From Mariniflexile gromovii (lineage in GTDB: Bacteria; Bacteroidota; Bacteroidia; Flavobacteriales; Flavobacteriaceae), in the NCBI RefSeq assembly GCF_017814435.1, contig NZ_JAGJCB010000029.1:1-34579 (forward strand): a stretch of 34,579 nt of DNA, given 5' to 3'. Every line of letters starts with the position of its first letter. Position 1 is the stretch's first letter. A program made the translations under genes and the position numbers. Below are positions 1,621-7,021 of the stretch, one piece after another. Under the pieces are notes generated by a model that was given only the letters and a program-made list of their open reading frames with translations, had not been told where the DNA came from and did not search any database.

Positions 1621-2160
1621 TTAATGGCACATTTTGCAATCCTTTTTATCTTTAATCTCACCCACTAAATAACCGGCATCATTCACTTTAAAATCGCAAC
1701 AATCCATAAAACCTTGTGCTATTAGCTTTCTGCCGCGTTGTATTTGAGATTTGATAGTTGGCAATGGAACATGTAATTGTTCTGATATTTGAGTTTGTTT
1801 TATTCCTTTAATATCAGATAAAAATAGCGGATCTCTATACTTCTTTGGCAAACTTATAATAATGCCCCTTAAACAGTCTTCTTTGGTATGTTCTAATTTT
1901 TGGTCATCAAAAGTCATATCAACTTCTGAAACTTCATAAGTGATGTTATTATTTCTGAAATAATCTAGAACGGTATATCTAGCAATGGCGAACAACCACG
2001 ACTTTAATTTACCGGCATCTTTTAAAGTATCTAGCTTTGTATGTACTGTAATGAAGGTTTCCTGAAGCAAATCGTCTGCAACAACGGCATCCTTCACTTT
2101 ACTTAATATAAAGTGTTTTATATCAATTGAATAGGTGTTCCAAATATCTTGGGTTTGCAT
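1621..2160 (-). CDS. sigZ: SigZ-like ECF RNA polymerase sigma factor
   Basis: The 179-aa protein has sigma region 2 at about residues 8-75 (DDLLQETFITVH, GKLKSWLFAIARYTVLDYFR) and sigma region 4 at about 100-150 (LPKKYRDPLFLSDIKGIKQT, then QISEQLHVPLPTIKSQIQRG). The C-terminal tail after region 4 carries MDCCDF and ends CKMCH, so four Cys and a His are available for metal binding. This arrangement matches SigZ-type sigma factors. No anti-sigma factor lies beside it. In CorE-type ECF sigma factors a C-terminal Cys-rich tail senses metal directly, and the same may apply here (inference). A 33-aa Cys-rich peptide gene lies 74 bp upstream on the same strand. Confidence 0.9.
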   Translation of the reverse strand: MQTQDIWNTYSIDIKHFILSKVKDAVVADDLLQETFITVHTKLDTLKDAGKLKSWLFAIARYTVLDYFRNNNITYEVSEVDMTFDDQKLEHTKEDCLRGIIISLPKKYRDPLFLSDIKGIKQTQISEQLHVPLPTIKSQIQRGRKLIAQGFMDCCDFKVNDAGYLVGEIKDKKDCKMCH

Positions 2161-2169
2161 AACTACAAA

Positions 2170-2213
2170 AACAGTGTTTACTTCAGTATAAAGTTACTAA
2201 AATAAACACCGTT
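2170..2213. promoter_or_regulatory. Inverted repeat between the Cys-rich peptide gene and sigZ
   Basis: AACAGTGTTTA (2170-2180) and TAAACACCGTT (2203-2213) pair over 10 of 11 bases, separated by 22 nt, just upstream of the sigZ ATG. On the minus strand the second arm runs into TTTTT, so it could be an operator or a weak attenuator that lowers sigZ expression relative to the peptide. Only the repeat itself is seen. Confidence 0.35.
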
Positions 2214-2234
2214 GCTTTTCAAATTAAAATAAAC

Positions 2235-2336
2235 TTAACAGTTACAATTACTGCAAGTACAGTTTTCGCATGTACAATTTTCGCATTGTCCGTTTTGGCA
2301 ACCATCACAGTTGCAAGTGCATTCTTTATTTTTCAT
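2235..2336 (-). CDS. 33-aa Cys-rich metallothionein-like peptide
   Basis: A minus-strand ORF from the ATG at 2336 to the TAA at 2235 encodes 33 aa, of which 11 are Cys (positions 6, 8, 10, 13, 18, 21, 23, 26, 28, 31, 33). They are arranged as CxC and CxxC, and there is no aromatic residue. The C-terminal half is three near-copies of a pentapeptide (ENCTC, ENCTC, SNCNC) encoded by a 15-nt tandem repeat. Such spacing is typical of soft-metal thiolate clusters (Cu, Zn, Cd), and there is no signal peptide, so a cytoplasmic metal-binding role is likely (inference). The sigZ gene follows 74 bp downstream on the same strand. No named family is recognised. Confidence 0.65.
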   Translation of the reverse strand: MKNKECTCNCDGCQNGQCENCTCENCTCSNCNC

Positions 2337-2438
2337 AATATCTATTTTTAATGTTCATATAATAGACGTACAAATGTTTAAAAAGATGCATTTTTTTAAA
2401 AGAATTTTATTTTTAAAATAGTCACTTCTAAAGAAAGC

Positions 2439-2504: not shown

Positions 2505-5500
2505 TTACATATTTCTACGGTACTGACCGCCAACTTCAAACAAAGCGTTTGTAATTTGCCCTAAAGAACACACTTTACAAACTTCCATTAAAGCTTCAAA
2601 AATGTTTTCATTTTGGATGGCTTTCTGCTGAAGCGCTTTTAAAAGTGCCGTTGTATCGTGTGCTTTATGAAGATTTTCTAAAGTTTTTATTTGAAACTGT
2701 TTTTCTTCTTCGGTGGCTCGAATTACTTCCGCAGGCAACACCGTTGGAGAACCTTTACTGCTTAAAAAGGTATTCACACCTATAATGGGGAATGCACCGT
2801 TATGTTTCAAGGTTTCATAATACAAACTTTCTTCCTGTATCTTACTGCGTTGGTACATGGTTTCCATAGCGCCTAAAACACCGCCGCGTTCGGTAATTCT
2901 ATCAAACTCCAAAAGAACAGCTTCTTCCACCAAATCGGTTAATTCTTCAATAATGAACGACCCTTGAATAGGATTTTCATTCTTGGCCAAACCTAATTCT
3001 TTATTGATAATAAGTTGAATGGCCATAGCACGTCTAACCGACTCCTCCGTTGGCGTGGTTATCGCTTCATCGTAAGCATTCGTGTGCAAAGAATTGCAAT
3101 TATCGTAAATCGCATACAACGCCTGTAACGTGGTTCGGATATCGTTAAAATCGATTTCCTGCGCATGTAAGCTTCTACCTGATGTTTGAATATGGTATTT
3201 AAGCATTTGAGCGCGCTCATTAGCACCATACTTAAGCTTCATGGCTTTTGACCAAACTTTTCGTGCTACACGACCAATTACCGCATACTCTGGGTCGATG
3301 CCATTTGAAAAGAAGAAGGATAAATTGGGTCCGAATTTATTAATGTCCATACCGCGACTTAAATAATATTCCACATAGGTGAAACCATTAGATAAGGTTA
3401 ACGCCAATTGGGTAATGGGGTTGGCACCAGCCTCTGCAATATGATAGCCAGAAATAGACACCGAATAAAAATTACGCACATTGTTTTCAATGAAATATTC
3501 TTGTACATCGCCCATTAAACGCAGTGCAAATTCCGTTGAAAATATACAGGTATTTTGTGCTTGGTCTTCTTTTAAAATATCGGCTTGTACCGTGCCGCGA
3601 ACCTGCGACATGGTGTTTACCTTTATGGTTTGATAAACTTCTTTTGGCAGTACTTGGTCGCCCGTAACCCCCAAAAGCATCAAACCCAAACCATTATTCC
3701 CCTCGGGTAATTGACCATTATATTTTGGTCGTTCTTTACCTTTGTATAAAGTCGCTATTTTAGCTTCTACTTCTTTTTCTAAACCATGTTCCTTTATATA
3801 AATTTCACATTGTTGGTCGATGGCAGCGTTCATAAAATACCCTAACAGCATGGGAGCGGGCCCGTTAATCGTCATACTAACCGAAGTCACAACATGTGCC
3901 AAATCAAATCCGGAATAGAGTTTTTTAGCATCATCCAAACAACAAATACTAACGCCTGCATTTCCTATTTTACCGTAAATATCGGGGCGTAAATCGGGGT
4001 CGTTTCCATAAAGCGTTACACTATCAAAAGCGGTAGACAAGCGTTTTGCTGGCAAACCGGCACTTACATAATGGAAACGTTTATTGGTACGCTCCGGACT
4101 TCCTTCACCAGCAAACATACGCGCTGGGTCTTCGCCTGTACGCTTAAACGGGTACAATCCTGAAGTGTATGGAAATTCCCCAGGTACATTTTCTTGCAGC
4201 ACCCATTTTAAAATATCGCCCCAAGCTTGGTACTTTGGCAATGCCACTTTAGGGATTTGCACATGTGAAAGCGATTCTGAATGGGTTTCTATTTTAATGT
4301 CTTTATTGCGGACTTTAAATGTATAAACCGGGTTTTTATATGTGTTAACTTTTTCATCCCAACCTGTTATTATGTCCCAGTTGTAGGTGTCTAGATTTCG
4401 TTTTACACGGTCGAATTCGGCAACTAACAATCTGATAAAATCTTTACTATCACCGGGTGTTTGTTTCAGGATGGCTTCGTGGTTTAAACCATTTTTATCA
4501 AGAAGAGATTGCTTCGTTTCACTCGCAATGACGTTTAAAACCGACTCCATCGTTTTAAAAATGCCATACAATTTTTGGGCTACTTCAACTTGCTCTATGG
4601 CTTTAGAATCGTAAGCACGATTGTTTTCGGCAATTTCAGATAAATAACGGGTTCTAGATGGTGGAATGACAAAAATCTTTTCGCTCATTTCATCTGAAAT
4701 GGAAAAAGTGGATTTTAAATCTGCCGATGCTTTTTCAACCAATTTATATATAACCGCCTTGTAAAGTGTGTTCATGCCTGGGTCGTTAAACTGCGAAGCA
4801 ATCGTTCCAAAAACAGGCAAATTTTCTTGTGGTGTATCCCAAAGGTTGTTGTTACGCATGTATTGTTTTTTCACATCGCGCAAGGCATCTAACGCACCTC
4901 GTTTATCAAATTTATTTATAGCTACCAAATCAGCAAAATCGAGCATATCTATTTTTTCCAATTGGGTTGCAGCTCCAAATTCGGGCGTCATCACGTATAA
5001 CGACACATCACTGTGTTCTATAATTTCGGTATCCGACTGCCCTATTCCCGAAGTTTCCAAAACAATTAAATCGTATTCGGCGGCTTTCAACACCTCAATA
5101 GCTTCATGCACATTTTTTGACAAAGCTAAATTAGATTGACGTGTTGCCAAACTACGCATATAAACTCTTGGGTTGTTTATGGCGTTCATTCTAATTCTAT
5201 CGCCCAAAAGCGCGCCACCCGTTTTACGCTTGGAGGGATCTACCGAAATAATACCAACTGTTTTTTCTGGAAAATCGATTAAAAATCGGCGTACCAACTC
5301 ATCTACCAATGATGATTTTCCTGCGCCTCCTGTACCTGTAATTCCGAGAACGGGAGCCGCTGCCAACCTCCTCGAAGAGGAGGAACCCTCAGTCTTCTGA
5401 ACAAATAAATTTTCAAAAGCCTTATGATTATTTTCTGCCAATGAAATTAACCTAGCAATGGTATTAACATCTTTATTTTTTAAATTTTCTAAAACCTTAT

Positions 5501-6020
5501 CGTTTCCTAATTTCAATAACCAAGAATCATCTTCATTACAAATTTTTCCAGACTGCTGATTCTCCCCGTTGGGGAGACTAAGAGGGGTGTCCGATTGTGC
5601 TACCAAATCATTAATCATGCCTTGCAACCCAAGTTCACGACCATCATCTGGCGAATAAATTCGGGCAATACCGTAGGCCATTAAATCTTTAATTTCAGAA
5701 GGTAAAATAACACCGCCACCGCCGCCAAAAATTTTAATATGCTGTGCGCCCTTCTCCTTCAACAAATCGTACATATATTTAAAATACTCGTTATGGCCAC
5801 CTTGATATGAGGTTAAACAAATAGCATTTACATCTTCTTGAATGGCTGTATTTACCACTTCTTCCACACTTCTGTCATGGCCCAAATGAATCACCTCCAC
5901 ACCCGTAGCTTGAATAATTCGGCGCATGATATTTATAGAGGCATCATGACCATCAAACAAAGATGCTGCGGTTACTATTCTAATTTTATGTTTTGGCTTA
6001 TATGGCGATATGTGCATCAT
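2505..6020 (-). CDS. icmF: Fused isobutyryl-CoA mutase (B12-dependent)
   Basis: This is a single-chain acyl-CoA mutase that interconverts isobutyryl-CoA and n-butyryl-CoA (and sometimes related branched acyl-CoAs) using adenosylcobalamin. Domain order is typical of IcmF: a B12-binding domain at about residues 10-140 with DGHDAS (His25, the lower cobalt ligand); a MeaB-type GTPase with Walker [10 protein letters not shown] near 230, which loads and protects the cofactor; then the TIM-barrel mutase from about 530 to the end. The ATG pair at 6020/6017 is chosen because the upstream extension to 6080 is hydrophobic and unlike the family, giving 1171 aa. Three palindromic repeats are inserted in frame in the linkers (see separate entries). 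The neighbour purU is divergent. Family certain; substrate inferred. Confidence 0.93.
4506..4533. repeat. In-frame palindromic repeat inside icmF (GTCATTGCGAG type)
   Basis: On the coding strand GTCATTGCGAG...GAAGCAATCT encodes [10 protein letters not shown] at about residues 496-505, between the GTPase and mutase domains. The arms ATTGC/GCAAT pair. This matches a widespread repeat that is often found translated in unrelated proteins as a VIAxExKQS peptide. It keeps the reading frame. Confidence 0.75.
5367..5383. repeat. In-frame palindromic repeat inside icmF (CCTCCTC-GAA-GAGGAGG)
   Basis: A perfect 7-bp hairpin with a GAA loop encodes part of [10 protein letters not shown] (about residues 210-220), just before the GTPase Walker A motif. 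The surrounding bases (gagggttcctcctcttcgaggaggttgg on the coding strand) look like intergenic repeats of this group rather than conserved protein sequence. Confidence 0.65.
5561..5577. repeat. In-frame palindromic repeat inside icmF (TCTCCCC-GTT-GGGGAGA)
   Basis: A perfect 7-bp hairpin with a GTT loop, followed by ctaagaggggtgt, encodes [13 protein letters not shown] (about residues 142-154) in the linker between the B12-binding and GTPase domains. The layout matches a common flavobacterial intergenic repeat. Confidence 0.7.
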
Positions 6021-6136
6021 TCTAAAATAAATTAATTTAATAGGGTGTAAATTTACGAAATGCTCAAAAAAAATAAGCATTTACAAACGATTATCTAAAA
6101 TTATAATCTTATAATATGCATCAATAATTTTTAGGT

Positions 6137-6144
6137 TAATTTTG
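6137..6144 (+). promoter_or_regulatory. -7 element of purU promoter
   Basis: TAATTTTG matches TAnnTTTG exactly, 22 bp upstream of the purU ATG. No clear TTG -33 element is seen at the usual distance. Confidence 0.45.
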
Positions 6145-6166
6145 AACTTAAATCATTTTAATTCAA

Positions 6167-7021
6167 ATGCAAAAGATTACCATTTTAATTCATTGTAAAG
6201 ACCGTCCGAATATTATTGCTACCGTCACCAATTTTATCGCCCAAAAAGATGGCAATATTGTGTACATAGACCAGCATGTTGATAGGGAGCAAAACATATT
6301 TTTTATGCGATTGGAAAGCGAGTTTACCAAAGAATCGTTTTCTGCCGATGTTTTTAGAGATGCTTTTAAAAACACATTGGCTGAAGCTTTTGATATGAAA
6401 TGGCGCATTTACTCCTCAGCCAGAAAACCTAAAATGGCATTGTTTATTTCTAAGTACGACCACTGTTTATACGATTTATTAGGACGCTATAATTCTGGGG
6501 AACTTAATTTAGAAATCCCTTTCATTATTAGTAACCACTTAGATTTAAAACCGATTGCCGATAGTTTTAAAATCCCGTTTTTCCACGTTCCCGTTACTAA
6601 AGACACCAAGAAAGAAGCGGAACAAAAACAATTGGAACTTCTTGAAGAATACCAAATTGATTTTATTGTATTGGCAAGGTACATGCAAATTATTTCACCT
6701 AAATTAATTGAAAGATACCCGAACAAAATCATTAACATCCACCATTCATTTTTACCAGCTTTTGTGGGCGCAAAACCTTACCATTCGGCTTTTAAACGCG
6801 GGGTTAAAATTATAGGAGCCACCAGTCATTATGTGACCGAAGAATTAGATGCGGGTCCTATTATAGACCAAGGTGTTACCCGTGTATCCCATTCGCATTC
6901 TATTGAAGATTTAATTGCAAAAGGACGCGATTTAGAAAAAATAGTATTGGCAAATGCCGTAAAATTACATACCAACAGAAAAGTAATGGTTTATAACAAT
7001 AAAACCGTAATCTTTTCTTAA
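6167..7021 (+). CDS. purU: Formyltetrahydrofolate deformylase
   Basis: PurU hydrolyses 10-formyl-tetrahydrofolate to formate and tetrahydrofolate, balancing one-carbon pools and supplying formate for purine synthesis. The 284-aa length is normal. An N-terminal ACT domain spans about residues 1-80 (ITILIHCKDRPNIIATVTNF). The C-terminal formyltransferase fold covers about 88-284, with the catalytic Asn-His-Asp set in NIHHSFLPAFVGAKPYH and EELDAGPIIDQ. It is divergent from icmF and has its own -7 element. The DUF4197 lipoprotein gene follows 42 bp downstream and may be cotranscribed. Confidence 0.95.
   Translation: MQKITILIHCKDRPNIIATVTNFIAQKDGNIVYIDQHVDREQNIFFMRLESEFTKESFSADVFRDAFKNTLAEAFDMKWRIYSSARKPKMALFISKYDHCLYDLLGRYNSGELNLEIPFIISNHLDLKPIADSFKIPFFHVPVTKDTKKEAEQKQLELLEEYQIDFIVLARYMQIISPKLIERYPNKIINIHHSFLPAFVGAKPYHSAFKRGVKIIGATSHYVTEELDAGPIIDQGVTRVSHSHSIEDLIAKGRDLEKIVLANAVKLHTNRKVMVYNNKTVIFS

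Follow-up and report, generated by a model that had tools for sequence, protein, structure and literature searches.

Why should a gene for a 33-residue peptide with 11 cysteines stand directly in front of a gene for an ECF sigma factor, and do the two belong together? The question is raised by a contig of Mariniflexile gromovii (C22; 34,579 nucleotides of a 4.28 Mb genome), the whole of which is called the window in the following. Both genes lie on the minus strand, the peptide gene (2235..2336, starting with ATG) upstream and the sigZ-like gene (1621..2160, encoding 179 aa) downstream, at a spacing of 74 bp; they are regarded as genes 1 and 2 of a presumed operon, and the coordinates confirm the arrangement described in the original prediction. 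The pair, together with the neighbours and promoters of SigZ relatives elsewhere, suggests, judged from sequence, a possible system for the sensing of toxic metals. The upstream neighbour of the pair is icmF, and sigZ is followed by a 46-aa ORF, a 131-aa ORF and a gene for an Lrp-type regulator. No match to an anti-sigma family appeared among the neighbours of sigZ in the scans made, the contig ending about 1.6 kb beyond this gene, in agreement with the earlier statement that SigZ has no anti-sigma factor at its side. An Rfam search over positions 1400-2600 gave nothing above the gathering score, its single match being at chance level (E 0.97). By eye, an inverted repeat gcgatgaaaaact...agttttttcatcgc was noticed at 1526-1562, about 60 nt past the sigZ stop codon, in a segment which the terminator scan did not flag; it is perhaps the end of the peptide-sigZ operon. 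Near the end of the contig (31887-33756), genes resembling IstB/IstA by eye presumably belong to an insertion element, the IstB-like ORF of which looks cut.

A survey of 299 genomes of the family (SigZ match cut-off E <= 1e-25) supports the view that the two genes form a genuine unit which has been conserved. SigZ matches were obtained in 56 of these genomes, with a clear score gap between 149 and 116 bits; close orthologues, defined as those above the gap, occur in 36, and all 36 genomes carry the 11-Cys peptide. The original prediction had named the conservation of the Cys-rich ORF beside sigZ as one test of its pairing claim, which holds on this count. Within the genus, SigZ was found in three of six genomes, which adds two genomes and brings the set to 38 loci; in every one the peptide gene lies directly upstream of sigZ on the same strand. 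Both genes are broken in G188, and the remaining 37 loci are intact. At the cut-offs used, SigZ is absent from 243 of the 299 family genomes and from three of the six genus genomes, and the unit is therefore dispensable. A profile of the peptide matched 48 of the 299 family genomes, with a single copy in each, namely the 36 with a close SigZ orthologue and 12 others. In a second SigZ group within the family, the same position is taken by a 14-Cys peptide of 37-41 aa. It could be argued that the two genes are neighbours by chance and travel together with icmF and lrp, as icmF and/or the downstream genes (the 131-aa ORF and lrp) flank many copies of the pair. They do not flank all of them, however, and the pair is kept at loci where these neighbours were not found in at least 1.5 kb of DNA on each side. 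Such hitch-hiking, which would also leave the shared promoter and the unrelated peptides of other lineages unexplained, was rejected on the grounds that the pair persists where the flanking genes differ, and it is extremely improbable.

The peptide of the window consists of cysteine to one third, contains CxC and CxxC motifs and is devoid of aromatic residues. All 11 cysteines are invariant in an alignment of 37 copies (A1, with the broken copy L035 excluded), and their spacing is nearly fixed. Over the last 29 codons of the gene the mean pS is 0.78 and the mean pN 0.23, the synonymous sites being far diverged; pN/pS amounts to 0.29 overall and to 0.57 at the non-Cys codons, values which indicate that the peptide protein itself is under selection. 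Very short, Cys-rich proteins with CxC/CxxC motifs and no aromatic residues are also found among the bacterial metallothioneins, for instance SmtA/BmtA and MymT. Unlike these, the window peptide gave no match up to E = 1 in Pfam and NCBIfam, nor did its 37-row profile among PDB chains, and its control would be exerted by a sigma factor. The peptide may accordingly be described as metallothionein-like by composition, not by family, and is presumed to bind metal.

How the two genes might be read is suggested by the DNA on either side of the peptide gene, whose promoter and hairpin, like the broader pattern among SigZ relatives, are absent from the original prediction. A putative SigZ-type promoter (2363..2390, minus strand) consists of TGCATC (2385-2390), a 16-nt spacer and CGTCTA (2363-2368), and ends 26 nt before the ATG of the peptide. 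The arrangement TGCATC-N16/17-(C)GTCTW, with a T-run after TGCATC, lies upstream of the peptide in 37 of the 37 intact 11-Cys loci, a few of which differ by one base, and the distance from the end of the promoter to the ATG is 24-33 nt in 36 loci and 65 nt in one. Genome-wide patterns were run with the spacer fixed at 16 nt and would miss other spacers, such as those of the arsM loci; with this setting the peptide promoter is the only exact match in the window genome. An exact match was found in 29 of the 299 family genomes, never more than once per genome; in 24 it belongs to the peptide locus (including the broken G188 copy), and in the other five (G118, G163, G177, G230 and G248), which are without a close SigZ orthologue, no Cys-rich ORF was seen after the site. 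When up to two mismatches were allowed, the window genome contained 18 sites including the peptide promoter, compared with 23 for the reversed pattern; a larger SigZ regulon in this genome was rejected, as the site counts do not exceed the control. At up to one mismatch, 37 genomes contain 70 sites, of which 37 are the peptide promoter, and the remaining 33 compare with 28 for the reversed control. Nine of these 33 were fetched, two preceding CDF genes and seven lying inside ORFs; two more, in the window genome, were also inspected, one being located within a 443-aa ORF. The promoter of the 14-Cys type (TGTATC...GTCTAC) was only partly caught by the regular expressions.

Between the peptide gene and sigZ, a terminator-like stem-loop of 19 pairs with a T-rich tail (2170..2213, minus strand) reaches a z-score of -5.2 against dinucleotide shuffles. 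Mononucleotide shuffles were used for the full set of peptide-sigZ gaps, and here z was at or below -3 in 43 of the 44 folded, the gaps of 3-4 nt (L044, L059) standing outside this set; the stem-loop sequences differ between loci. With a single promoter for both genes, the hairpin would presumably shift the yield towards the peptide and away from SigZ. On the other hand, the order of short Cys-rich ORF, terminator-like hairpin and regulator gene is also that of a leader-peptide attenuator, in which translation of the 11 Cys codons would report the cysteine supply and control the hairpin in front of sigZ.

The 12 family genomes that have the peptide gene without a close SigZ bear on this point. 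There is no sigZ beside the peptide in any of them, and the peptide is intact in nine; completeness is below 90% in eight of the 12, yet the DNA adjoining the peptide is present, without sigZ. ECF matches in these genomes do not exceed 84 bits, and the best ones stop before the tail. In G062, G059, G088 and G221, weaker matches to the SigZ profile, none above 81 bits, extend further in the direction of the tail but contain internal stop codons; they are possibly old SigZ remnants elsewhere in the genome. In G088, G221 and G059, the 131-aa ORF and lrp are found downstream of the SigZ-less peptide, which suggests that these are the same locus after loss of sigZ. The 12 SigZ-less loci have promoter scores of at most 11/14, with a median of 8 that equals random DNA and a highest value that belongs to a decayed remnant in G088; none of the 37 loci with SigZ scores below 12/14. 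Since the promoter is lost where SigZ is missing, in genomes that keep the peptide gene, it probably belongs to SigZ, which would recognize it. As the peptide is kept when both SigZ and the promoter are gone, it appears to work alone, and it can hardly be a leader. Along these lines, the Cys-rich ORF lies downstream of sigZ in other lineages, or on the opposite strand with its own promoter, and neither the nearly fixed cysteine spacing nor the constraint on the non-Cys codons is what an attenuator calls for; on the basis of the SigZ-less peptides and the other gene orders this reading was rejected, and its probability is very small. The peptide could also be a protein partner of SigZ, be it an anti-sigma factor or a metal donor, rather than a sink. 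The constancy of the pairing among the close SigZ orthologues, and the decay of both genes together in G188, would fit such a role; the maintenance of peptides without SigZ, and the replacement of the peptide elsewhere by unrelated peptides or by arsM, weigh against it and make it improbable. As a separate observation by eye, the SigZ-less 11-Cys peptides of L289 (G272) and L292 (G052) are situated a few hundred bp upstream of carbonic anhydrase-like and SulP-type transporter-like genes.

The sigma factor of the window contains the domains of sigma regions 2 and 4, and among the NCBIfam models it scores best with those for SigZ, NF007215 (171 bits, cut-off 212) and TIGR02959 (155 bits, cut-off 168.65). 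B. subtilis SigZ, to which these models belong and which was compared through them, is thus the best-matching named family, with the window protein below both curated equivalog cut-offs; NF007215 also finds its match in the B. subtilis control genome. The table of a 2023 review lists SigZ as an ECF sigma factor only, with no function (PMC10141391). The tail of the window protein, CCDFKVNDAGYLVGEIKDKKDCKMCH, comprises a thiol-rich stretch of the form CC-x19-C-x2-C-H (residues 154-179; 1624..1701, minus strand), which had been singled out in the original prediction; a further cysteine that had gone unnoticed there, Cys96 (codon 1873..1875, minus strand), stands at the start of the sigma4 region. 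SigZ relatives were gathered by sigma-factor similarity only, from surveys of the family, genus, class and phylum and from named genomes, and after merging of identical sigma cores, and with exclusion of promoter-pattern loci (L061-L106, L296-L304) and SigZ-less peptide loci, 132 SigZ and 58 control loci were compared, related species among them not being independent. Cys96 is present in 111 of the 132 SigZ proteins and in one of the 58 other ECFs, Cys154 in 127 and one, Cys155 in 124 and two, Cys175 in 113 and none, and Cys178 in 121 and none, respectively. These five cysteines mark SigZ against other ECFs, being typical of the former and rare in the latter. In an AlphaFold model (pTM 0.44), C96 belongs to the first helix of sigma4; the CC pair is located where the last long helix ends, and a short strand-strand-helix tail follows it. 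The SigZ alignment (A2) holds 48 of 51 rows, L018, L024 and L025 being omitted as close relatives of retained rows, and L035 and L044, broken or cut by a contig end, lie outside it; the fold alignment (A4) combines the window with 25 of the 30 candidates, 26 rows in total (L156, L158, L159, L161 and L163 omitted).

Metal-responsive ECF sigma factors with a short C-terminal Cys-rich extension are represented by CorE (Cu) and CorE2 (Cd, Zn) of Myxococcus xanthus, which belong to a group formerly named ECF44 and now ECF238 and have no linked anti-sigma factor (PMC3107203, PMC8999054). SigZ shares with them the Cys-rich C terminus and, in the window, the lack of a linked anti-sigma factor. The Cys-rich domain of CorE, however, has four invariant cysteines at positions 181, 184, 192 and 194 (PMC3107203), spaced C-x2-C-x7-C-x-C as opposed to CC-x19-C-x2-C in SigZ, and the CXC of the sigma2-sigma4 linker of CorE is missing from 131 of the 132 SigZ proteins, that of the window included; most ECF238 members are reported to be without this linker CXC as well (PMC8999054). 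SigZ differs further in the additional C96 and in its coupling to Cys-rich peptides or arsenic genes. The CorE-type likeness put forward earlier may therefore be retained for a possible mode of action, by analogy; in terms of family it falls away, SigZ standing outside the CorE family in view of the linker CXC and the cysteine spacing. Among the titles and abstracts of the matches listed in the open-licence literature, none connected SigZ with arsenic or with a Cys-rich peptide.

Outside the window's clade, the neighbours of SigZ point to arsenic. In a comparison that was not blind and favours SigZ, the arsenic queries having been taken from SigZ neighbours and the promoter and Cys criteria having been set on SigZ loci, Cys-rich peptides were found at 86 of the 132 distinct SigZ loci (48 with 11 Cys, 18 with 14 Cys and 20 with another Cys-rich ORF) and at none of the 58 other ECF loci; tblastn searches with arsM, arsI, arsC, acr3, aquaporin and DUF2703 queries placed an arsenic-type gene within 1.5 kb at 22 of the 132 compared with one of the 58, an ArsI match; and the promoter type occurs within 700 bp at 89 SigZ loci (102 sites) and at no control locus, the reversed pattern giving one site. 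At least one of the two gene types accompanies 105 of the 132 SigZ loci, neither was seen at 27 (including the broken G188 copy), and the motif is missing nearby at 43. A narrower promoter pattern, applied to a range of 1.5 kb, detected 66 sites, spread over 56 of the 132 SigZ loci, against two in the 58 controls and none for the reversed pattern. Within 110 nt upstream of a gene it precedes sigZ itself (13 sites), arsM in L060, L239, L144, L148, L149 and L156 (five phyla by titles and lineage), ArsI/CadI in L159 and L261 (one exceeding the NCBIfam cut-off, the other falling slightly short of it), and Cys-rich peptides unlike that of the window in L236, L160, L258, L260, L216, L250, L264 and L132, all of which belong to the window's phylum; a DUF2703 gene, one of several genes of doubtful fit, is also preceded by it. 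Arsenite methyltransferase above the NCBIfam cut-off stands beside SigZ in records from Rhodospirillales, Syntrophomonadaceae and Ignavibacteriales, which are MAGs, and from Ktedonobacter, which is not, and in the window's class and family as well (L123, L239, L060). ACR3 was recognized by NCBIfam beside SigZ in one record of the Bacillota; the ArsC-type reductase of L112 stayed below its cut-off. G121 has a unit of each kind, SigZ being paired with the peptide in one and with arsM in the other. The most direct tie of a Cys-rich peptide/SigZ pair to arsenic is L050 (G160), where sigZ is preceded at 45 bp by a 14-Cys peptide and, on its own strand, at 289 bp by the end of a match to an ACR3 arsenite exporter; near the 11-Cys loci no arsenic-type genes were found.

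In a tree of 131 of the 132 SigZ rows and eight of the 58 controls, the bootstrap of which had not settled, the 11-Cys loci are united in a single group (support 94/89), and the controls L278 and L164 fell inside the SigZ part. The arsenic-linked loci are scattered, with 18 changes, little better than the 20.8 of shuffled labels, and from this scatter it appears that the outputs of SigZ may have been swapped often. SigZ-type promoters were also seen before genes for a MATE exporter, PAP2-like proteins, an aminotransferase (by eye) and an unassigned 116-aa protein ending in CC (L238, L251, L127, L161, L255), which are possible further outputs. Downstream of sigZ in L218 (2979-3104) and L057, related peptides of about 42-46 aa that end in FGA[YH]RR[FY]C and have few cysteines lie behind SigZ-type promoter sequences; they are possibly a different kind of peptide product.

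The best explanation of the locus, which we consider probable, is an autoregulated, thiol-tailed ECF sigma factor that drives a metallothionein-like sink, metal binding and direct sensing being part of the proposal. The two genes would form a self-activating operon: RNA polymerase carrying SigZ would start at TGCATC-N16-CGTCTA and read the peptide gene first, and when the leaky terminator-like hairpin is passed, sigZ would be co-transcribed. The peptide would act as a thiolate sink and SigZ as a one-component sensor, whose activity would change upon binding of a soft metal or metalloid at C96, CC154-155, C175 and C178. Presumably the switch is towards activity, such that metal in excess of the peptide pool would load the SigZ tail, SigZ would fire and more peptide would be made, whose chelation of the metal would then close the loop. 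In other lineages the same SigZ and promoter type would serve arsM, arsI, other Cys-rich peptides and, in a few genomes, CDF exporters. If this holds, a widespread sigma factor family to which the review table assigns no role (PMC10141391) would acquire a function, together with a regulon and a consensus for its promoter, and the metallothionein-like peptides of bacteria would be extended by new families whose small size makes them easy to overlook. The promoter alone was enough to lead to exporters, to arsenic genes and to Cys-rich peptides of unrelated kinds, and thus offers a route to finding more.

The same cysteines permit another reading, as cysteine pairs serve also as redox switches. 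The SigZ cysteines might sense disulfide or electrophile stress, with the peptide, a third of it Cys, as a thiol buffer and metals in a secondary role. Some of the SigZ-type promoters precede genes without an obvious metal role (the PAP2-like, MATE and aminotransferase genes above), and in L160 a gene recognized by eye as that of a DsbA-like oxidoreductase (2104-2928) terminates a short distance before sigZ. The recognizable targets and neighbours, with redox genes noted by eye, are however mostly metal(loid) genes (arsM, arsI, arsC, acr3, CDF), and a thiol or redox stress unit is judged unlikely. Returning to the metal-responsive sigma factor, we lean slightly towards a generalization across phyla, in which SigZ proteins would be one-component, thiol-based metal(loid)-responsive sigma factors that have kept the five cysteines and the promoter TGCRTC-YTTT-N-CGTCTW and have swapped their outputs among unrelated metallothionein-like peptides, arsenite methyltransferase, ArsI/CadI and CDF exporters; the window would then be the most reduced form, with one tiny peptide.

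As to which metal is involved in the window's clade, the promoter provides some guidance. It lies 23 and 17 nt before CDF exporter genes in G083 and G131, respectively, two genomes of this clade, the closest named model for these exporters being the zinc transporter ZitB, below its cut-off. A degenerate promoter (11.5/14) precedes a CDF gene in G119; the other 27 of the 30 fetched CDF loci score at most 10/14, and the window genome's own CDF gene (L319), with a best score of 7.5/14, has no such promoter. G136, which lacks SigZ, has a CDF gene upstream of the peptide, the two being separated by a single gene. On account of these CDF links in G083, G131, G119 and G136, zinc or cadmium, as soft divalent metals, are favoured in a first guess held with low confidence, and arsenite, copper and others are candidates too. 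As regards the minimal metal-response unit of the original prediction, a tie of the SigZ family to metal(loid) defence is supported by neighbours and promoter (arsM, arsI, acr3, arsC, CDF exporters). Elsewhere among the SigZ loci, SelU/SelD-like genes were noticed by eye near that of L145 (about 5095-6533).
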